Source: Haloplanus ruber
GTDB taxonomy: Archaea > Halobacteriota > Halobacteria > Halobacteriales > Haloferacaceae
Assembly: GCF_024494725.1 (NCBI RefSeq)
Contig: NZ_JANHDK010000002.1
Span: 62,001 to 126,000, forward strand
Length of the DNA: 64,000 bases
Direction: 5' to 3'
Both the position numbers and the translations under genes were made by a program. The notes under the pieces are model-generated. The model was not told where the DNA came from and made no database searches. It saw only the letters and a program-made list of their open reading frames with translations. Of this stretch, positions 10,711 to 57,700 are shown one piece after another (within the stretch, counting starts at the first letter, position 1; each line of letters starts with the position of its first letter).

Positions 10711-11574
10711 TCACGGCTCCGCCGCCGTCACGAACGAACGCAGGTCGGCCGGGTCGACGTCGATTCCTTGACGCGTGAAAAAGGACGCGACGTTCCGGCA
10801 GTCCCGGTCGAGGAAGTCGTCGGCGTTCGGGTGGTGGACCGTCACCGCCTGTCCCAGGTCGATGACGACCAGTTCCCCGTCGTGGATGATCAGGTTGTAC
10901 TCCGAGAGGTCGCCGTGGACGAGACCGGCGCCGTGGAGCCGTCGCATATACTCTCGCACCACCTCGAAGGCCGTCTCGGGGTTCTCGACGGTCACCTCCG
11001 CGAGTCGCCGGGCGCGCTCCTCGACCAACCCGACCAGTTCCATCACCAAGACGTTCCGCTCGACGGCGATGGGTTCGGGCACCCGGACGCCCGCGGCCCG
11101 CGCCCGTCGGAGGTTGGCGAACTCCTTTTTCGTCCACGCGAGGACGACTTTCTTCTTATCGGAGCCGATCCCCTCGAATCGCGGGTCGCCCTCGAGGTAC
11201 GCCCGCATCTGCTGGAAGTTCGAGGCGTTGATACGATAGATCTTCACCGCCACGTCGCGGTCGTCGGCACCCAGCGCCTCGTAGACGTTCGCTTCCTTTC
11301 CCGTCGAGATGGGGCCGCCAAAGGCGTCGATGTAGCCGTCTTGGACGAGCTTGTAGATTGCCGCGAAGGTGGCGTCGTCGAACACCGACTGAGCGACCTT
11401 GAACTGGTCGGCGTCTTTCAGGCGCTTGCGGAATTCGGCGAACTCGCGGTCCCGCTTTCTGGCGATGCGGTCCGCGTCGGTATCGGACACGTCGATCTCT
11501 TCCCACTCGTCGCCGAAGTCGTCGCCTTCGCCCTCCTCGGGGTCGAGCAGGCCGTACTCCTCGCGGTCACTCAT
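10711..11574 (-). CDS. rio1: Serine protein kinase Rio1
   Basis: A 287-residue atypical kinase of the RIO family, required for late 40S/30S subunit maturation. The nucleotide loop reads STGKEANVYEALG, the catalytic loop LVHGDLSEYNLIIHD, and the metal-binding segment LVVIDLGQAV, all in the expected order. An acidic N-terminal region (about 40 residues) precedes the domain. It lies between aIF1A and the Dim2-like KH protein, a block conserved in many archaea. Confidence 0.93.
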   Translation of the reverse strand: MSDREEYGLLDPEEGEGDDFGDEWEEIDVSDTDADRIARKRDREFAEFRKRLKDADQFKVAQSVFDDATFAAIYKLVQDGYIDAFGGPISTGKEANVYEALGADDRDVAVKIYRINASNFQQMRAYLEGDPRFEGIGSDKKKVVLAWTKKEFANLRRARAAGVRVPEPIAVERNVLVMELVGLVEERARRLAEVTVENPETAFEVVREYMRRLHGAGLVHGDLSEYNLIIHDGELVVIDLGQAVTVHHPNADDFLDRDCRNVASFFTRQGIDVDPADLRSFVTAAEP

Positions 11575-11613
11575 TCACTCTCGTTACGTCGTCACGCCTC
11601 AAAAGTCCCGTCG

Positions 11614-11904
11614 CTACTCGATGTGCCCTTCGCGCCGCAACTGGTCCGCCTCCGACTTCTCGTATCGCCACGAGATGTCGGCTTTCTCGTCTTGCCAGTC
11701 CCACGGTTCGACGAGCACCACGTCGTCTTCCCGGATCCAGATGCGTTTTTGCATCCGGCCGGGAATGCGGGCGGTGCGTTCTTGCCCGTCCGCACACCGT
11801 ACCTGTACCCGGTTGGCTCCGAGCATGTCCGTTACGACGGCGAACACCTCGTCGTCGTCGGGCATTCGAAGGTCCGTGCGCCCGCCGTTTTCGTTCTCGC
11901 TCAT
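11614..11904 (-). CDS. eif1A: Translation initiation factor aIF1A
   Basis: A 96-residue OB-fold factor that binds the A-site of the small subunit during initiation. Recognisable segments: [40 protein letters not shown], and [15 protein letters not shown]. Length and order are normal. It is the first of three genes (aIF1A, Rio1, Dim2-like) reading leftwards with gaps of about 40 bp. Confidence 0.96.
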
Positions 11905-11961
11905 GGCCGGGCGTTCGCGGTCGCGAGTTTTAAAACCGCCGACGTATCGTCGCGCCCGCCC

Positions 11962-12963
11962 TCAGGCGTCGGATATCGCGTCCCGCAGTTTCGCCCGCCC
12001 GGGCGCGATGAGTTCGTCGAGATACGTCGCCAGCGCCCCCTTCGCGTCGGCCGGATGCAACGCGCCAGCGTCCAGATCAGCCGCCAGCGACTCGTAGTCT
12101 GTGTAGGTCAGGTCGCCACCGTACTCGTCCGGCCGTTCGACCACGACCGTATCGTACCGCGGGAAGACGTGGTATTCGAAGATCTGAAGCACGGGATTCT
12201 CGCGTTCGCGGCCCTCGTCGTCCGGGTCGGGGTCCCGGGTCGGCGGGCAGAAGGCGTCGTTGACTTTCCGCTCGATGTCGGCCGTCGAATCCTCCATCGA
12301 GATGGAGACGCCCTCGCTGGCGGACATCTTTCCAACGCCCGTATCGAGGTCGGCGATCAACGGCGTGTGGAGGCAGGTCGGCGACGCTTCGCCGATCCCC
12401 GGCAGGGTGTCGCGAGCGAGCATGTGGACCTTCCGCTGTTCCATCCCACCGACCGCGAGGTCGACATCGAGGTAGACGATGTCGAGCGCCTGCATCAGCG
12501 GGTAGACCGCCTGGGAGACCCGCACCGAGTCGCCGCTTTTGATCTCTGCCATCGCCCGCTCGGCCCGGGAGAGGGTCGTCTCCAGTTCCAGCGCGTGCAG
12601 GTCGAGGACGTACTCGCGGTCGAACTGGAACTCGGAGCCGTAGACGAACTCGGTGCGCTCCTCGTCAAGGCCGTACGCGAGAAACTGCGCTTTCATCCGC
12701 TCGGCCGTCTCCCTGATCTCCTCGAAGGTCCCCTTGTCGTTGAGATAGGCGTGGACGTCCGCGAGCAGGACCGTCACCTCGAAGCCAGCCTCCTGCAGGT
12801 CGATCAGCTTCGTCGCGGTGAGCATGTGGCCGATGTGCAGGACGCCCGACGGCTCGTAGCCGACGTACGCACGCTTGCCCTCAGGGTCCTCGGCCAGTTC
12901 CCGTCCCTCCGACTCGGTGACCACCTCGGTCGCGTTCCGGGTGATCCGCTCGTAGGCGTCCAT
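11962..12963 (-). CDS. tyrS: Tyrosyl-tRNA synthetase
   Basis: A 333-residue class I aminoacyl-tRNA synthetase of the archaeal/eukaryotic TyrRS type. It carries the HIGH motif as SGVLHIGHM, the segment YPLMQALDIVYLDVDLAVGG, and a KMSKS-like loop GKMSASEGVSISMED. It attaches tyrosine to tRNA-Tyr. The ATG at 12963 gives MDAYERITRNATEVV, the usual start; upstream in-frame residues look non-coding. It runs in the same direction as the aIF1A block, 57 bp before it. Confidence 0.95.
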   Translation of the reverse strand: MDAYERITRNATEVVTESEGRELAEDPEGKRAYVGYEPSGVLHIGHMLTATKLIDLQEAGFEVTVLLADVHAYLNDKGTFEEIRETAERMKAQFLAYGLDEERTEFVYGSEFQFDREYVLDLHALELETTLSRAERAMAEIKSGDSVRVSQAVYPLMQALDIVYLDVDLAVGGMEQRKVHMLARDTLPGIGEASPTCLHTPLIADLDTGVGKMSASEGVSISMEDSTADIERKVNDAFCPPTRDPDPDDEGRERENPVLQIFEYHVFPRYDTVVVERPDEYGGDLTYTDYESLAADLDAGALHPADAKGALATYLDELIAPGRAKLRDAISDA

Positions 12964-13000
12964 ACCGTATACCGCGGGAGCGGGAAAATATGACTTCCCC

Positions 13001-13615
13001 TTACGACCCGGGCAGGATGTCGCCGAGCGCCGCCCCGACACCCATCGGGACGAAGGCCACGACGACGTTGGCGAAGGCGAGTGTCGGCTCCGCCCAGTCG
13101 ACCCGCCCCCACCCCGTCAGCAGGACGAGCGCCATCGTAAACGAGACGCCGACGACCCCGGCCAGCCGGCGCGGGATCACCCCGAGGATGGGCCTGTGGA
13201 CGCGCACGTCTTGGAAGTCGGCGACGTAGATGATCCCGATGACGAGACCGACCCCGAACAGGATCGTCCCGCCGAGATAGAGGGGGCGGGCAACGAGGAA
13301 GTCACCGACTTCTTGGGTGCCACCCTCGACGGCCATCGGGACGCCGAACAGGAAGCTTCCGAGAACCGCCTCCGCGAGGTCGCCGCGGTCGTAGCCCCGG
13401 ATCACGCGGCCAAACGGAGTCGTCGCGGTACTCGCACTCGCCGCCATCGCCACACGCATGGTTTCGTGGACCTGTCTGCGGCCAGCCGGCGTGTCGACGA
13501 TGTCCGCCAGTTCCTCGAGTTCGTCGAAGAGGTCACCCATGTCGGGCGGGTCCTCGTCCCGCTCCCCGTCGCCCTCGTCGGGCCGAGGCGTTGCCCCGGA
13601 CGCGTCCTCGCTCAT
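13001..13615 (-). CDS. DUF2391 family integral membrane protein
   Basis: A 204-residue protein. The first 60 or so residues are acidic and cytosolic, containing MGDLFDELEELADIVDTPAGR. Then follow about four or five hydrophobic segments (GTILFGVGLVIGIIYVADF, RLAGVVGVSFTMALVLLTG, LAFANVVVAFVPMGVGAALG). The layout and the DRGDLAEAVLGSFLFGVPM motif fit DUF2391 membrane proteins of haloarchaea, whose function is unknown. ATG at 13615 is favoured; an in-frame start five codons earlier is possible. Confidence 0.78.
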   Translation of the reverse strand: MSEDASGATPRPDEGDGERDEDPPDMGDLFDELEELADIVDTPAGRRQVHETMRVAMAASASTATTPFGRVIRGYDRGDLAEAVLGSFLFGVPMAVEGGTQEVGDFLVARPLYLGGTILFGVGLVIGIIYVADFQDVRVHRPILGVIPRRLAGVVGVSFTMALVLLTGWGRVDWAEPTLAFANVVVAFVPMGVGAALGDILPGS

Positions 13616-13744
13616 ACCCGCAGGTCTCACCCGAGACCCAAAGCCGTAGGGGGCCGGTGGCTCCTACGGGGTATCGTGAGTCAGCACCGGTGGGTCGCCG
13701 AGACGGTCCGGTGAACCACCACTACCCAGTTACCGTAGGCCGGA

Positions 13745-15712
13745 TCAGTCGCCACTCTCGGCCCGGTGTTCGCTGATGATCTGGTCGACCATCTCCGATT
13801 TCTGCTCCTTGGACCGTTCCTCGGCGCGGCGTTCCCAGTCCTCGATTGCGGCCGCAACCTCGCTCTCGCGAGCGACCGCGAGTTCGTCTACCTCTTGGAC
13901 GGTCACGTCGGCGGCGGGTGCGACGGGGACCTCGGCCTCGAACAGCACCTCGTCGGCGGCATTCGAGAGGTTCCCGGACCGGAGGACGAGGCGCGGCTCC
14001 GTCGCCGCCAGACGCTCGGCGGTCGACCGGCCGGCGCCACTGGCGTCCCGGAGATAGATCACATCGCCCGCAGCCAGCCCGAAGGCTGTGTCGGCGTCGT
14101 CGATGGCGTCCCGGGTGAACTGCTCGATCATCTTCACGGGGACGAGGTCGCGGCCCGCCGACACGTCGGCAAAGTCGGAGTGATCGAGCTTCCAGAGGGT
14201 TTTCAGCCGCTCTAACTTCGATTCGAGTTCGTCCGCGCGCTCGCGCTCTTGGTCGCGGTCGCGCTCCAGTCGCTCGGTTTCGCGCTCCAGCCGGTTGATC
14301 TCGCGGCGCTCGCGCACCTCGCGGCGCTCCTCGCGGCGAGCCTCCGAGAGCTCTTCCTCGAACTCCGCGATTCGCTCGTCTTTCTCTTCGAGGCGGCCGC
14401 GGAGGTCGTCGACGGTGTCCTCCAGCCGGTCGACCTGTCGTTCGAGACGCTTGATGCGTCGCTCCTCCGGCGTGAGTTCCCGCGGTTCGTGGGTCGACTC
14501 GGCCTCCTCGTCGCCGTCGTCGTCGGACAGTTCGTGGAGCGCCGCCTCGACGGATTCCTCGCCGGCGACGACGCGTTCGAGCACCTCACCACGGTCGAAC
14601 TGCGGGGGCACCTTCCGGGTGATCCGCTCGAACTGGTCCGCGTAGCCGTCGAAGGCAAAGAGCGCGGCAGCCATCGCGTCGCGTTCGTGGTCGTTGTCGT
14701 AGGTGTGCTCGCGAGTGCGGTGAAGTTTCTCGTCGACCGGAAGGTCGGCGTCGGGGACCCAACCCGCCGCGTCGAAGCTTCGGCGGAACTTCTCGACGGT
14801 TTCGGGCATCGGCTCGACGTCGGCGGCGACGACGACCGGCCGCCCGCGGTCGACGAGCCACTCGATGACGTCCGCGGTGTCCGCGGTGCGCGTCGAGAGC
14901 ACGTCGAGCACCTCGCCGTCCAGCGAGACGACAGCCGCGGCGGTGGTCGTCCCGGGGTCAACCCCGACGAGGACGCGGTCCCGCCGTTTCACCAGCGGTT
15001 CGAACTCGATGCCGTCGCGGCGCTCCCGCTCGATTTCGACGCGCGTGTCGCCGGCGCGGGACTTGCCCACCGGGAGGTCGTCGGGCGCCGCCTCGACGGT
15101 GAAGGTGGCGTTGGCGTAGCCGCCGTACTTCTCGGTTATCTCGCGCTCGTAGTCGAGATTCGCCTCGTCGAGCGCGTCGGCCACCTCGCGGGCGCGTTTC
15201 TTGACGTTTCCGTGGATCCGCCGGGTGTAGCGATCCTGACTCCACCCGCCCGATCCAGTCGACCGCCCACGGGATACCTTCACCGTCGTCGTGTCGGCGA
15301 AGGCAGTTACCTCGTGGCCGACATTGGCGGCGGCGAGGCGGGCCGCGGCCTCCGCCTCCGCCATCGGCTTCTTGCCGTAGGGGACGCCGTGACGCGAGGC
15401 GACCCGGGAGAGGGGTTCCGGCCGCTCGGCGCCGGTCACCTGGACCAGTCGCGTCCCCCCGGGAAGCCACCGGAGAAAGCGCACGAGGTCGTCGTGATCG
15501 GTCGCGAGTTCGTAGACGTTGTCGGTGGCGACGATAGTCGGCTCCTCACGCTCGATCAGGCGTCGGAGCTTGCGGAAGGACACGACGTCCCGGTCGAGGT
15601 TCTCACCGTCGTAGGCGACAACCGCGTAAGACGGGGCGTCCCCGCGGACGTCGCCGCTCTGTACGTCGACGCCGAACACTAGCGCGTCGAGCGCACTCGT
15701 CCGGGCGTTCAC
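13745..15712 (-). CDS. DUF460 protein: RNase H-like domains plus long coiled coil
   Basis: A 655-residue archaeal protein. The N-terminal part (ALVFGVDVQSGDVRGDAPSY) and the central part (RVLVGVDPGTTTAAAVVSLD, about residues 245-265) look like RNase H/RuvC-fold segments with conserved Asp residues. Residues about 420-520 are a highly charged coiled coil rich in Glu/Arg heptads, and a small basic C-terminal domain follows. The fold suggests a nucleic-acid enzyme, but no activity is established to my knowledge. The GTG at 15712 is chosen because the TATA element TATTTAT lies 27 bp upstream; a longer reading from GTG at 15748 would place that element inside the gene. Confidence 0.85.
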   Translation of the reverse strand: MNARTSALDALVFGVDVQSGDVRGDAPSYAVVAYDGENLDRDVVSFRKLRRLIEREEPTIVATDNVYELATDHDDLVRFLRWLPGGTRLVQVTGAERPEPLSRVASRHGVPYGKKPMAEAEAAARLAAANVGHEVTAFADTTTVKVSRGRSTGSGGWSQDRYTRRIHGNVKKRAREVADALDEANLDYEREITEKYGGYANATFTVEAAPDDLPVGKSRAGDTRVEIERERRDGIEFEPLVKRRDRVLVGVDPGTTTAAAVVSLDGEVLDVLSTRTADTADVIEWLVDRGRPVVVAADVEPMPETVEKFRRSFDAAGWVPDADLPVDEKLHRTREHTYDNDHERDAMAAALFAFDGYADQFERITRKVPPQFDRGEVLERVVAGEESVEAALHELSDDDGDEEAESTHEPRELTPEERRIKRLERQVDRLEDTVDDLRGRLEEKDERIAEFEEELSEARREERREVRERREINRLERETERLERDRDQERERADELESKLERLKTLWKLDHSDFADVSAGRDLVPVKMIEQFTRDAIDDADTAFGLAAGDVIYLRDASGAGRSTAERLAATEPRLVLRSGNLSNAADEVLFEAEVPVAPAADVTVQEVDELAVARESEVAAAIEDWERRAEERSKEQKSEMVDQIISEHRAESGD

Positions 15713-15735
15713 GACTCGCGGTAGGTGGGCGTTGG

Positions 15736-15742
15736 ATAAATA
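15736..15742 (-). promoter_or_regulatory. TATA box deciding the DUF460 start
   Basis: TATTTAT on the minus strand, centred 27 bp before the GTG at 15712. It implies a leaderless transcript and argues against the longer 5' extension. Confidence 0.6.
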
Positions 15743-15764
15743 CTCCACGCCGACAGCGGCCGGA

Positions 15765-16136
15765 CTACAGCGCCGCGACGACTAGCGCCGTCGCCACCGC
15801 GGCCAGGACGACGCTAATCACGCTGAGGCGAAGGGCGTAGCGGCGGTCACGCCGGCGGTGGCTCGGGTCGGTGACCGCACCGGTTCCGTCCTCGCCGGCG
15901 AAGTCGTACCGGCCGAGGAGCGCGAGGCGCACGCAGAACCCTTCGTAGGCCTGAATCCCCCACTCGAAGGCCACAGCGAAGGGAACGAACACGCCGACCA
16001 ACAGCAGTTTGGGGAGAGCGCCGACGAGATATGCGGCCACGACGGCGCTCGCGACCAACAGTCCAGCCGCGGAGAACACGGCTCGGCGGCGGCGCTGACG
16101 AGAACCGATGTTGCACTGGGCGGGTCGGTAGTCCAC
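15765..16136 (-). CDS. Small membrane protein of unknown function
   Basis: A 123-residue protein starting at a GTG (MDYRPAQCNIGSRQRRRRA). A basic N-terminus is followed by two hydrophobic helices (AAGLLVASAVVAAYLVG, LLLVGVFVPFAVAFEWG), a cytosolic loop, and a final C-terminal helix (VISVVLAAVATALVVAAL). It lies just upstream of the DUF460 gene in the same direction (52 bp from it). I recall similar small proteins in other haloarchaea but no named function. Confidence 0.65.
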   Translation of the reverse strand: MDYRPAQCNIGSRQRRRRAVFSAAGLLVASAVVAAYLVGALPKLLLVGVFVPFAVAFEWGIQAYEGFCVRLALLGRYDFAGEDGTGAVTDPSHRRRDRRYALRLSVISVVLAAVATALVVAAL

Positions 16137-33608: not shown

Positions 33609-34421
33609 TCAGTCGTCAGCGAACGACCCGACGCCGGAGTTCGAGACGACCGATTCGTTGGCGGCGACCCACCGCAACAACAGGAACGAGAACACGTACT
33701 TCGCCAGGACGTCGAGCGCGGAGTACGCCCACGAGGTGAGTCCGACGGACTGTACGAGCGCGAAGCCCTCGACGCCGACGGCCCAGATGATGGGATACCC
33801 GAGCCACAACACGACCGTGAGCGCTCGAAGCGTCCCGAATATCTCACCCGTACCGGCCGCCGCCGCCGACTGCGGCCACTCGACCAACAGGGCGTACAGG
33901 ACGACGGCGAAGAAGGCACAACTGATCACGTAGAACAGCCAGCGCGACAGGTACGACGAGGTGACGAGCGCCGCAGCCAGGCCGGTCAGACACATTCCCA
34001 CGTCTGCCGCGATGACCGCGAAGATGCTTCCGGTGTCGGCGTCGGCGAGCAATCCCAGCGCGAGCAGGATCAACGGCGTCGACAGCGCCCACGTGAGATA
34101 CCGACCCCACTGGCTCATCACTTCCTCTCCGGCTAGTGCGTGTCCCGCGGGCATCTCGATGAAGCCGACAGTCAACCCCGACAGCAGGCCGAGGTAGCTC
34201 GAAATCGAGACGAGCGGAATCATCAGCGTCGCGGCCCAGATGAGCCGCGGACGTCCCGGAGAGACGTTCCGCCCCATGTATACGAACAACAGCGCAGCGA
34301 GTCCCGCAAGGGCGATGTTGACCCAGAGCGAGGAACTGAGCAACACGTCGTTTTGTATCTGTGAGACCGCTTCTCCCTGTGTCTGGAGTAGCACGCCGAG
34401 TGAGTCGGTTGGGTTGGGCAT
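33609..34421 (-). CDS. hop: Halorhodopsin (light-driven inward chloride pump)
   Basis: A 270-residue seven-helix microbial rhodopsin. The retinal Schiff-base lysine is Lys241 in LDVLAKYVFSFLLLRW. In helix C the sequence WGRYLTWALSTPLILLAL places Arg107, Thr110, Ser114 and Ala121 where bacteriorhodopsin has Arg82, Asp85, Thr89 and Asp96: the TSA motif of halorhodopsin, so it pumps chloride rather than protons. The B-C loop FIEMPAGHALAGEEV is also halorhodopsin-specific. It would import Cl- in the light, aiding osmotic balance and membrane potential. A TATA element lies 34 bp upstream. Retinal synthesis genes are not in the window. Confidence 0.96.
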   Translation of the reverse strand: MPNPTDSLGVLLQTQGEAVSQIQNDVLLSSSLWVNIALAGLAALLFVYMGRNVSPGRPRLIWAATLMIPLVSISSYLGLLSGLTVGFIEMPAGHALAGEEVMSQWGRYLTWALSTPLILLALGLLADADTGSIFAVIAADVGMCLTGLAAALVTSSYLSRWLFYVISCAFFAVVLYALLVEWPQSAAAAGTGEIFGTLRALTVVLWLGYPIIWAVGVEGFALVQSVGLTSWAYSALDVLAKYVFSFLLLRWVAANESVVSNSGVGSFADD

Positions 34422-34450
34422 CGTGATCCGCGTGCCATACGTTCTGTACG

Positions 34451-34460
34451 TATAAATACC
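34451..34460 (-). promoter_or_regulatory. TATA box of the halorhodopsin gene
   Basis: Minus-strand GGTATTTATA centred about 34 bp before the ATG. An out-of-frame ATG at 34438 lies between it and the true start. Sequence between TATA and ATG includes the partial inverted repeat CGTACAGAACG. Confidence 0.65.
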
Positions 34461-34592
34461 TGAAGACGGTTCGACAATATTCTCCGGATTGGTTACTCGA
34501 TCTGTCGCCGACCGGCTGGATCACGGGGTGAGCGAGACGCGACGGTGGCCGCGAACGACCGAACGAGGCGAGTGATACGTGTGACCGTGTGG

Positions 34593-35138
34593 CTACGCGC
34601 CGCTTGCCGGCTGTCCGCCGCGACCAAGTAGCCAGCCGAGCGCGAACAGCGGAAGCGCCGGCAATCCACCAAAGACGAGGACGCCCAACACCGGGCCCAT
34701 GGGAAACGGACTAGTTTGTAGGACGGCTGTGACACCGGTCGCAACCACGGCCAAGAAGACGGTGAAGGCGGCCCACGTCGGCCGCCGCCTGCGCAGGCAG
34801 ACACCGAGCGGGTATCCCGAGAGCGCAACGGCGAGTGCGCCCACCGGAACCAGCGAGCGGCCGCGCCTCGTGCCGGCGAAGATTGCAATCGTCCCAGCCA
34901 GCCAGAGAACGACGGCAAACCGGAGCGCCACCGGCGGCCCCGGACGCCCCGCCAGGTGGACGGACGCCGCGGCCGCGAGCAAAACGAGTCCAGCGCCGAC
35001 GAGGACGACCCCGGGAAGCGCCACGAGAAACGTGGGAAGCGAGAGCAGGAGTGCGCCAGCAACGGTCAACAGGAGGCCCGTACCGCCGAGTCGTCGAACC
35101 GTCGTGGTCCGGTCGTCCGTCTCGGACTCCGTATCCAT
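34593..35138 (-). CDS. Polytopic membrane protein of unknown function
   Basis: A 181-residue protein with an acidic N-terminus (MDTESETDDRTTTVRRLG) and about six short hydrophobic segments (LLLTVAGALLLSLPTFLVAL, VVLVGAGLVLLAAAASVHLA, ALRFAVVLWLAGTIAIFAG and others). Gly/Leu-rich composition and short loops suggest a compact bundle. It is upstream of hop in the same direction but separated by 171 bp that contain hop's own promoter. No family recognised. Confidence 0.65.
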   Translation of the reverse strand: MDTESETDDRTTTVRRLGGTGLLLTVAGALLLSLPTFLVALPGVVLVGAGLVLLAAAASVHLAGRPGPPVALRFAVVLWLAGTIAIFAGTRRGRSLVPVGALAVALSGYPLGVCLRRRRPTWAAFTVFLAVVATGVTAVLQTSPFPMGPVLGVLVFGGLPALPLFALGWLLGRGGQPASGA

Positions 35139-35450
35139 GGTCGCCCCTGGAAAGGGTCGGAACATTAACCTTAGCGTGCCGGTGCTTCGACCGATGGACG
35201 GCATCGTCCTCGACGAGGCCGGGCGTAGTCGAGGATGGAATTCCGGCTAGATAGCCCCGGCCGACGACGCCACCCCTATCCGGTAGCCGGGACGACTGAC
35301 TGCCGTTCGCGAACGAGTGAAACGAGTGAGCGGGCACGATGGGGTCCGACTCTCCGGCGATATGCAACCCCGATAGTAGCGAATTCGGTTCGCCCACCCA
35401 AACATTTTGCCTGTAAGCGTTGTAAGGACTGAACAGAGAGGTCAGCACAG
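35139..35450. other. 312-bp non-coding stretch with a tRNA-Arg 3'-end copy
   Basis: No gene is evident. The stretch holds repeated GAACGAGTGAAACGAGTGAGCG-like sequence (35311-35332) and, directly after, a 15-bp copy of the 3' end of the tRNA-Arg(UCU) gene (35329-35343). From about 35360 the base composition becomes more A/T-rich toward the toxin-antitoxin pair, marking the edge of an accessory insert. Confidence 0.6.
35329..35343. repeat. Partial copy of the tRNA-Arg(UCU) 3' end (att-like)
   Basis: AGCGGGCACGATGGG is identical to 36170-36184, which spans the discriminator, the acceptor 3' strand and the start of the T-stem of the tRNA gene. It lies on the 3' side of the tRNA, where the far attachment site of a tRNA-integrated element would be. 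Confidence 0.65.
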
Positions 35451-35648
35451 ATGTCCAACGCCAGCAAACGAATTCCGGTCACAGAGGAGCGATGGAAGGA
35501 ACTGAACGAGCTCAAGGGGGCAGGCGAGACGTATGACGACCTGCTCGGAGAACTGATCCGGGAACACCAGCGCCGGCAACTCGCAGAACGAGCGAAGGAA
35601 GTCCGCGAAGCAGACGCTGACGAACTGACCTCGCTTGATGAGTTATGA
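35451..35648 (+). CDS. Antitoxin of a RelBE/VapB-type pair
   Basis: A 65-residue protein: an N-terminal strand-like RIPVTEERWKELNELK that resembles ribbon-helix-helix/AbrB-type antitoxins, the segment GAGETYDDLLGELIREHQ, then a charged helix ending in an acidic tail (ADADELTSLDEL). It is immediately followed, with an 11-bp overlap, by a RelE-like toxin. By family logic it binds and neutralises the toxin and represses its own promoter. Composition is more A/T-rich than its neighbours, consistent with acquisition. Confidence 0.78.
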   Translation: MSNASKRIPVTEERWKELNELKGAGETYDDLLGELIREHQRRQLAERAKEVREADADELTSLDEL

Positions 35649-35934
35649 AGTCCTCCTCGCGGAGGAAGCCCGTGAGTATGTCGCCGCGCTAGACCAGAAG
35701 AGCACACGCATCGTAACGGACAATCTCCGGAAATTAGCGGACGATCCGTATCCGAGGCCGGATTCAGGATCCGGTGACAAAGAAAAGCTGGTGGTCGAGG
35801 GCGAGGAGCTCTATCGTCTGCATATCGGGCGAACTCACACCGCATTCTACGACGTACTCGAAGCGAACGAGGAAGTCCGCGTGATCGAGATCGTGGACAT
35901 CGACGAGGCGCACAAGCGCTATGGATTCGATTGA
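35638..35934 (+). CDS. RelE/ParE-family toxin
   Basis: A 98-residue protein of the RelE/ParE superfamily: MSYEVLLAEEAREYVAALD, then KLADDPYPRPDSG, ELYRLHIGRTHTAFYDVLE and the C-terminal VIEIVDIDEAHKRYGFD. This strand-helix order with a conserved RLHIGRxHxxFYD core is typical of ribosome-dependent mRNA interferases. The ATG at 35638 lies inside the antitoxin gene (11-bp overlap), so translation is coupled. A TTG one codon earlier is a weaker start. Confidence 0.82.
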   Translation: MSYEVLLAEEAREYVAALDQKSTRIVTDNLRKLADDPYPRPDSGSGDKEKLVVEGEELYRLHIGRTHTAFYDVLEANEEVRVIEIVDIDEAHKRYGFD

Positions 35935-36080
35935 ACGGGTCCGTGGCTACGTCGGTCAGCTTCTCGAAATCAACGGATTTCGGTTGGAAATAAGCGATCC
36001 GAGTCCATTCGCTCTCGTGTTCGAAACCTCGAAATAAACTCTCTCTGCAGCCAGATGCCGACTTTTTGGTACTGCCACGA

Positions 36081-36099
36081 GCACGATGGGATTTGAACC
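36081..36099. repeat. Second partial copy of the tRNA-Arg(UCU) 3' region
   Basis: GCACGATGGGATTTGAACC is identical to 36175-36193, covering the acceptor 3' strand, T-stem and T-loop of the nearby tRNA gene, 94 bp away in the same orientation. It is too short for a tRNA and looks like a residual attachment site. Confidence 0.7.
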
Positions 36100-36171
36100 A
36101 CGGTCGCGGCGAAGCCGCTCCCTGAATTCAACTCTCAGTCGCCACTACTGCTCACTGTCGTTCGCAGATAG

Positions 36172-36271
36172 CGGGCACGATGGGATTTGAACCCACGACC
36201 GTCGGATGGCTTCCCCCGCGGGCCGTCGGGGTTAGAAGTCCGACGCTCTATCCGGACTGAGCTACGTGCCC
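36172..36271 (-). tRNA. tRNA-Arg (anticodon UCU) with 25-nt intron
   Basis: All arms fold: acceptor GGGCACG/CGTGCCC, D-stem GCTC/GAGC, anticodon stem TCGGA/TCCGA, T-arm GTGGG-TTCAAAT-CCCAT, discriminator G. Anticodon TCT is at 36236-36234. The anticodon loop is interrupted after A37 by a 25-nt intron (36232-36208). Splice sites fit the archaeal bulge-helix-bulge rule exactly: exon CTTC pairs with intron GAAG as the central 4-bp helix, flanked by 3-nt bulges TA|A and CC|A, and the intron closes with CCCCG/CGGGG. It decodes AGA/AGG, rare codons in this genome. Confidence 0.93.
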
Positions 36272-36382
36272 TCATCGGCGAGAAGGCGGGGAGAGTCAAA
36301 AAGCGGTTCGGCTCGGTCCGCAAGGCGAGACGGCGGACCGACACGACAGGGTATAAGGCCACGAGGCGGGTACGGACGGTCA

Positions 36383-43063: not shown

Positions 43064-43108
43064 CGGACGTGAATGCGGCGCGAGGACGCCGCTTCGTCGG
43101 GCGTCGAG

Positions 43109-43182
43109 TGGGCTCGGGCGGATTCGAACCACCGATCTCGGCCTTGTAAAGGCCGCGTCATAACCAACTAGACTACGAGCCC
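43109..43182 (-). tRNA. tRNA-Val (anticodon UAC)
   Basis: Acceptor GGGCTCG/CGAGCCC, D-stem GTC/GAC, anticodon stem CGGCC/GGCCG with loop TTTACAA (TAC at 43148-43146), T-arm GGTGG-TTCGAAT-CCGCC, discriminator A. No intron, and no 3'-end copy was found downstream. Confidence 0.95.
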
Positions 43183-49972: not shown

Positions 49973-49987
49973 AACGTCCTGACGGAG
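49973..49987. repeat. Partial copy of the tRNA-Arg(GCG) 3' end
   Basis: AACGTCCTGACGGAG is identical to 50073-50087, which spans the base after the tRNA, the discriminator, the acceptor 3' strand and the T-stem of the tRNA. It is 100 bp away, on the 3' side of the tRNA, in the same orientation. Confidence 0.6.
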
Positions 49988-50040
49988 TCCCACGCGAACG
50001 AAGTGAGCGCGGGGCACGTCAGAGCGTGAATGGAAAGGAG

Positions 50041-50061
50041 TAACCTGAGGAAGTCAGGTTA
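50041..50061. repeat. Stem-loop just downstream of tRNA-Arg(GCG)
   Basis: TAACCTGA-GGAAG-TCAGGTTA: perfect 8-bp arms with a 5-nt loop, 14 bp beyond the tRNA 3' end. It might affect termination or 3' processing of the tRNA transcript, or be a recombinase-type palindrome between the two tRNA-end copies. Confidence 0.6.
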
Positions 50062-50074
50062 CGACTGAAATGAA

Positions 50075-50147
50075 CGTCCTGACGGAGATTTGAACTCCGG
50101 TCCCTGGCTCCGCAAGCCAAGAGGATAGTCCACTACCCTATCAGGAC
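50075..50147 (-). tRNA. tRNA-Arg (anticodon GCG)
   Basis: Acceptor GTCCTGA/TCAGGAC, D-arm GGG-TAGTGGACTAT-CCT, anticodon stem TTGGC/GCCAG with loop TTGCGGA (GCG at 50113-50111), T-arm CGGAG-TTCAAAT-CTCCG, discriminator G. No intron. A partial copy of its 3' end lies 100 bp downstream. Confidence 0.93.
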
Positions 50148-57465: not shown

Positions 57466-57574
57466 GGGCCCTTAGCTTAGTCCGGTTAAAGCGCCCGGCT
57501 CATACTGGCTCGCGGCGAGACTGCCGCGGTCATGGGACACCGGGTGATCGCTGGTTCAAATCCGGCAGGGCCCA
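57466..57574 (+). tRNA. Elongator-type tRNA-Met (CAU) with 34-nt intron
   Basis: Acceptor GGGCCCT/AGGGCCC, D-stem GCTT/AAGC, anticodon stem CCCGG/CCGGG, T-arm GCTGG-TTCAAAT-CCGGC, discriminator A. Anticodon CAT is at 57501-57503. The intron (57505-57538) follows position 37: exon CTCA pairs with intron TGGG in a 4-bp helix flanked by 3-nt bulges TA|C and AC|A, and the intron folds back with CGCGGC/GCCGCG. Introns at this site in haloarchaeal elongator tRNA-Met are known; an Ile(CAU) identity is less likely but not excluded. Confidence 0.92.
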
Positions 57575-57675
57575 TCCCACTTTTTCCTCGGTCGCTCCGC
57601 TCCCTCGCAAAAACTTGGGGAAAAAGACCACACAAAGGATTCGAGCCCAGCGGACGAGCGAAGCGAAGTCCGCGC

Positions 57676-57700
57676 GGTTCAAATCCGGCAGGGCCCATCC
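57676..57700. repeat. 25-bp copy of the tRNA-Met 3' end (att-like)
   Basis: Bases 57676-57700 are identical to 57553-57577 (T-loop, T-stem 3' side, acceptor 3' strand and 3 flanking bases); the core is GGTTCAAATCCGGCAGGG. The copies are 123 bp apart in direct orientation, on the 3' side of the tRNA, as expected for attachment-site duplication by a tRNA-targeting integrase. Confidence 0.8.

Follow-up and report, generated by a model that had tools for sequence, protein, structure and literature searches.

Behind the tyrT gene of Escherichia coli, the rtT repeats form tandem 178-bp units, each of which repeats the tRNA 3' end at its start. Among haloarchaeal proviruses, e.g., that of Haloquadratum walsbyi, 22- to 43-nt copies of a tRNA 3' end mark the distal ends of the elements (PMC3119063), and SNJ2 is known to integrate within the acceptor end of a tRNA (PMC8371274). 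In Streptococcus salivarius, CIMEs and microCIMEs build up by accretion as tandem att-bounded elements, of which the gene-free ones measure 130 to 220 bp (PMC7563491). Here, we focused on a toxin-antitoxin (TA) pair next to the tRNA-Arg(TCT) gene of Haloplanus ruber, located in a stretch of 64,000 nucleotides referred to as the window, and compared the tRNA-Arg(TCT) locus in 12 Haloplanus genomes (G000 to G011), 11 of which are congeners of the source.

A preliminary description of the window had reported a 15-mer at 35329 and 36170 and a 19-mer copy at 36081, all of which are real. The outer 15-mers, AGCGGGCACGATGGG, are exact (35329 to 35343 and 36170 to 36184) and have no further site in the 64-kb window with two mismatches allowed, while a third copy of the tRNA end, which contains the 19-mer, is identical to the gene at 21 of 22 positions (36078 to 36099 versus 36172 to 36193). 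The 12-nt core GGGCACGATGGG, the complement of tRNA-Arg(TCT) nucleotides 61 to 72, occurs twice in the 3.28-Mb genome, both times at this locus. The tRNA intron was called by reading the sequence, in which the anticodon stem TCGGA/TCCGA encloses an interrupted loop, CTTCTAA. ARAGORN misses the gene unless its intron option is switched on, and the label tRNA-Pyl is an artifact of its intron placement. Among congeners, the intron varies in sequence and length (about 23 to 29 nt), and the tRNA body is nearly invariant.

Table 1. Features of the tRNA-Arg(TCT) locus in the window.
Feature	Position	Strand	Basis or content
Outer copy of tRNA-Arg(TCT) 3' end (outer att core)	35329-35343		Exact 15-mer AGCGGGCACGATGGG
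TA cassette, 747 bp	35332-36078		Core GGGCACGATGGG (35332-35343) through end GTACTGCCAC, directly before next core
Antitoxin, 65 aa, VapB-like	35451-35648	+	VAPB_antitox PF02697, 24.8 bits, below cut-off of 27.9
Toxin, 97 aa, ParE/RelE family	35641-35934	+	ParE_toxin PF05016, 25.9 bits (cut-off 23)
T module, 94 bp, between TA cassette and tRNA	36079-36172		tRNA 3'-end copy GAGCACGATGGGATTTGAACC, hairpin body, tail TTCGCAGATAGC
tRNA-Arg(TCT) gene, intron containing	36171-36271	-	Rfam RF00005, 60.7 bits
Putative integration core, tRNA-Arg(TCT) 3' end, nt 61-73	36171-36184		
tRNA-Arg(TCT) intron, ~25 nt, in anticodon loop	about 36208-36232	-	Read off sequence

Judging from the toxin family and the gene arrangement, the two genes can provisionally be assigned to the type II TA systems of the ParE/RelE superfamily. 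The toxin also matches the PHROG family of RelE-like toxins, its reading frame overlaps that of the antitoxin by 8 bp, and the small adjoining antitoxin gene is coconserved with it in nine genomes. NCBIfam and PADLOC hold no model for the pair, and no solved structure matched the two proteins by sequence. In a comparison of congeners, the differences at first, second and third codon positions numbered 89, 86 and 375 in the antitoxin gene and 124, 102 and 503 in the toxin gene. This concentration at third positions indicates that both genes are kept functional, i.e., that they are under purifying selection. As proposed earlier, the RelE-like toxin and its antitoxin lie between the outer copies in A/T-richer DNA, in agreement with the Pfam matches and with a GC content of 50 to 61% versus mostly 62 to 78% in the flanking 100-bp bins. 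The organization is CIME-like in that att direct repeats (cores at 35332 and at 36079/36173) flank the cassette where a conserved gene ends, and its 747 bp hold the two genes alone, with no integrase or mobilization gene. A CIME would also derive from a larger element and be mobilizable in cis by a related one, for which the integrase element of G005, described below, is a candidate.

When the 12 genomes were compared, the locus appeared as a row of modules in one orientation leading away from the tRNA 3' end, nearly all of which open with the 12-nt core as part of a repeat of the final 13 to 22 nt of the neighboring tRNA gene. The modules are of four kinds (TA cassettes, S hairpins, T hairpins and long elements), and their order and number depend on the species. 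S modules (about 81 bp) consist of the core, AGTCCC-loop-GGGACT, the inverse core and a tail, and T modules (92 to 102 bp) consist of a 21-nt core that includes the T loop, a hairpin, the inverse T loop and one of two tails. The T module of the window recurs in seven congeners, either beside tRNA-Arg(TCT) or within its array. The T modules of the congeners fold better than all of their shuffles and S modules also beat theirs, while folding of the TA cassette end is no better than that of shuffles. The TA pair is present in 9 of the 12 genomes and always at this tRNA. The boundaries of its cassette are identical in G001, G005, G008 and G010, and the size is constant at 746 to 747 bp in these four and in G000, while the pair is altered, truncated or fused in G003, G006, G009, G011 and the second copy of G008. 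A clean tRNA flank had been expected wherever the pair is absent, but the three genomes without it (G002, G004 and G007) retain one to three S and/or T hairpin modules. The pair adjoins the tRNA in G010 and lies outside the T module in G000; with respect to a gene for a 203-aa membrane protein, it is located outside in G006 and inside in G000.

The membrane protein gene and a rhodopsin gene, both beside the array (window 33609 to 35204), vary in presence and placement among congeners, suggesting that the unstable region reaches beyond the cassette. In G009, the TA genes are fused to a winged-helix-like open reading frame, a repeat protein and a Rep gene (L024, reverse complement 10862 to 16080), with no core between them and the joined DNA, making this a composite element.

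The history of the pair differs from that of its surroundings. TA distances are unrelated to those of the adjacent kinase gene (Spearman rho, 0.03), and G008 and G009 share 98% identity in the TA pair versus 81% in the kinase gene. In AU tests, the TA data reject the flank-tree clades G006+G009 (P = 0.0019) and G000+G008 (P = 0.0055), and the flank data reject the TA clade G008+G009 (P = 0.002), with clades chosen after the trees were seen and a flank alignment of just 1.15 kb. This conflict between the TA tree and the flanking genes (AU P < 0.006) indicates that the pair spreads horizontally, and it behaves as a recurrent, horizontally exchanged cassette. The preliminary description regarded the pair as the cargo or the last survivor of an integrated element; the cargo reading is the one favored here, but a last survivor is not borne out by a recurrent cassette of constant size. 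If the pair were instead the vertically inherited residue of one ancestral element, with the present arrays left by short-direct-repeat deletions from one long ancestral array, its invariable association with the same tRNA in Haloplanus would be expected, as would the truncated or fused versions in G003, G008 (second copy), G009 and G011. We nevertheless consider this quite unlikely, given the tree conflict and the AU tests, the near identity of the G008 and G009 pairs next to divergent kinase genes, and a module order that differs among G010, G000 and G006.

Beyond Haloplanus, the neighborhoods of 21 toxin relatives from other genera were read, and no tRNA-end array was present around any of them. 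The finding named beforehand as contrary to an integrated element, a pair at the same place in distant genera with no tRNA copies, was thus absent among them. The toxin shares no more than about 64% identity with its plasmid-borne relatives, and no phage record contains DNA resembling positions 35300 to 36300. Among viral contigs, the exact 21-nt tRNA end had no match, and no toxin relative was confirmed.

A candidate agent of exchange is found in G005, where the tRNA-proximal module is a 5.6-kb element that lies between two cores and encodes a tyrosine integrase as well as a DUF1424 Rep. The preliminary description had anticipated such a longer insert with an integrase gene in other genomes, and its reading of the copies as integration-type direct repeats gains support from an integrase element bounded by the same core and from the strongly species-variable array content. 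The G005 integrase is of the SNJ2 type (62% identity to the SNJ2 enzyme and 60% to the HHPV4 enzyme). The SNJ2 genome starts with a 13- to 14-nt stretch resembling a tRNA-Met 3' end (by eye, against the tRNA-Met of the window), and its int gene stops about 50 nt past this core, the same core-then-int layout as in G005 (about 50 to 60 nt). In G006 (L334) and G008 (L344), S arrays whose core is of the tRNA-Ala type likewise have SNJ2-type int genes directly next to their cores. The G006 array (L334, 950 to 1510) consists of about five near-identical 79-bp S hairpins in tandem and ends at a core directly adjoining the integrase gene.

We therefore favor, with a probability of roughly two in three, a CIME-like reading in which the pair rides as cargo on an att-bounded cassette that lacks an integrase and belongs to a tandem att array, with site-specific recombination at the 3' end of the tRNA changing the array. 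The cores, corresponding to nucleotides 61 to 73 of tRNA-Arg(TCT), would serve as the att sites bounding the cassette. They would be recombined by a tyrosine integrase of the SNJ2 type, provided either in trans or by an element integrating next door, so that the array could grow and shrink and modules could come, go and be swapped without disrupting the tRNA. Movement of the TA cassette by this integrase would proceed through a predicted circular junction of TTGGTACTGCCAC joined to GGGCACGATGGGGTCCGACTC, and the toxin and antitoxin would presumably help to retain it. The interchangeable core-bounded modules in 12 genomes and the near absence of the core elsewhere support this reading, as do the distance and AU results, the integrase element of G005, the matching layout of the SNJ2 genome and the int genes beside S arrays. 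Counting against it, integrated elements are typically far larger than S and T modules, and the source genome contains only two relatives of the G005 integrase, both distant (34 to 39% identity).

Modules could also be exchanged through homologous recombination in which conserved tRNA and core sequences pair. Haloarchaea recombine readily, and exact tandem duplications of modules, such as the 91-nt units behind tRNA-Glu in G008, are what ordinary recombination of tRNA-flanking DNA between species might leave, with no integrase needed now and the cores as old scars. As the full explanation this is quite improbable, since in several species the cassette ends coincide with the core, the kinase gene next door has not moved along with the pair, and live-looking SNJ2-type elements employ the same core.

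The hairpin modules extend well beyond this locus, as S- and T-like modules follow other tRNAs too, where the core is that of the local tRNA. We searched the flanks of 109 tRNAs in three genomes, taken as genome stretches, for a second occurrence of the 13 nt that end the same tRNA, with up to one mismatch and within 500 nt. Downstream copies were found for 33 tRNAs (6/43 in G000, 18/40 in G008 and 9/26 in the third genome) and upstream copies for none, compared with 7/3,570 in a control using the ends of other tRNAs. Homology mostly ends a few bases from the tRNA 3' end. A scan of GTDB genomes with a T-type pattern yielded at least 120 stretches, and all listed records are from Halobacteria. 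Among 84 matches read, 68 are situated no more than 150 nt downstream of a tRNA gene, and in 57 the end of that very tRNA is copied (at most two mismatches; control, 131/4,488, or 3%). The position that the pattern leaves free in both arms pairs in 80/84 (Fisher's test, 1e-16), and the copy follows the tRNA at that position in 65/68, both figures uncorrected for relatedness. In an inverse-complementarity test limited to the last 13 nt of the tRNA, few S-type modules separate from the control, and we therefore restrict the claim of arm tracking to the T-loop portion in T modules and to individual S modules judged by reading.

The loci turn over between species: some carry modules in G008 but not in G000, and at tRNA-Met the situation is the opposite. 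The intron-containing tRNA-Met(CAT) of the window (57466 to 57697, plus strand) is followed by a T-like hairpin in which its last 13 nt recur exactly at +110 (a 22-nt match), and the orthologous locus in G008 is empty. At tRNA-Arg(GCG) (49975 to 50147, minus strand), an S-like module carries an own-end copy at +87, and G008 has an extra T-like module of ~126 nt inserted exactly at the tRNA 3' end. No module follows tRNA-Val(TAC) (43108 to 43182, minus strand), whose G008 ortholog is followed by a T module that repeats the end of this tRNA exactly at +100. Among viral contigs, the S pattern had no match and the T pattern had one, beside a tRNA-Glu. We found no account of these modules in the searchable open-licence literature.

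Nested copies had been taken as signs of repeated insertion and loss. The strong variation of array content among species agrees with this, but the middle copy opens a separate hairpin module, one of a family behind many tRNAs in Halobacteria. The earlier interpretation, partly supported, was largely right but too narrow. The hairpins may be att scars, folded recombination sites or RNA devices. Their architecture with compensating arm changes, their folding relative to shuffles and their location solely downstream of tRNAs would suit functional RNA (or DNA) devices belonging to the transcription unit of the tRNA, e.g., terminators, processing decoys or trailer folds sequestering the repeated tRNA end, among which the pair merely inserted. 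This seems unlikely to us, because the modules belong to no Rfam family, the mobility of the pair would be left unexplained, and their patchiness between congeners (18/40 tRNAs in G008 versus 6/43 in G000) suggests that they are not required for tRNA function. More speculative still, and a long shot in our estimation, is a class-wide integron-like system in which tRNA 3' ends are docking sites and the tailored hairpins are folded single-strand recombination sites for SNJ2-type integrases that capture and shuffle small cassettes such as TA pairs.

Compared with integron cassette arrays, the Haloplanus locus likewise shows interchangeable modules behind a fixed site, and within S hairpins the core pairs with an inverted counterpart. 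As for an attC-type folded site on each cassette, hairpins are seen in the S and T modules and not at the TA cassette end. The fixed site is a tRNA gene, there is no IntI-type gene at the locus, and the sole integrase seen there (G005) is of the SNJ2 type. The betapleolipoviruses SNJ2 and HHPV4 resemble the G005 element in their integrases and in a core of about 13 to 14 nt at a tRNA 3' end, but the window cassette has no integrase, and its target is tRNA-Arg(TCT), whereas the SNJ2 core resembles a tRNA-Met end. The E. coli rtT repeats share tandem units with tRNA-end copies but occupy one locus, in contrast to many tRNAs of a whole class here. Copies at haloarchaeal proviruses flank elements of 6 to 52 kb (PMC3119063), whereas those in Haloplanus recur every 80 to 130 nt with hairpins. 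CIMEs and microCIMEs likewise line up in tandem between att sites where a conserved gene ends, some lacking an integrase and some lacking genes altogether, in highly variable order, but their targets are the 3' ends of rpsI, fda and other genes and their drivers are ICEs and IMEs (PMC7563491). The Haloplanus array differs in its archaeal tRNA target, its viral/plasmid-type SNJ2 integrase and a TA pair as sole cargo, and its hairpins (81 to 102 bp) are tailored to the tRNA. Tandem accretion of att modules in bacteria (PMC7563491) and partial tRNA copies at haloarchaeal proviruses (PMC3119063) are already known. What looks new is a TA cassette that can be exchanged at a single archaeal tRNA, together with hairpin modules tailored to their tRNAs throughout a class. 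The pair would represent a minimal att-bounded cassette passing between archaeal species, and the analysis exposes a repeat family behind Halobacteria tRNA genes whose hairpins track the sequence of their own tRNA and apparently mark sites where mobile DNA is stacked and exchanged. The array thereby offers a direct test bed for the build-up of gene-poor modules at tRNA genes and for viral integrases moving host cargo in trans.
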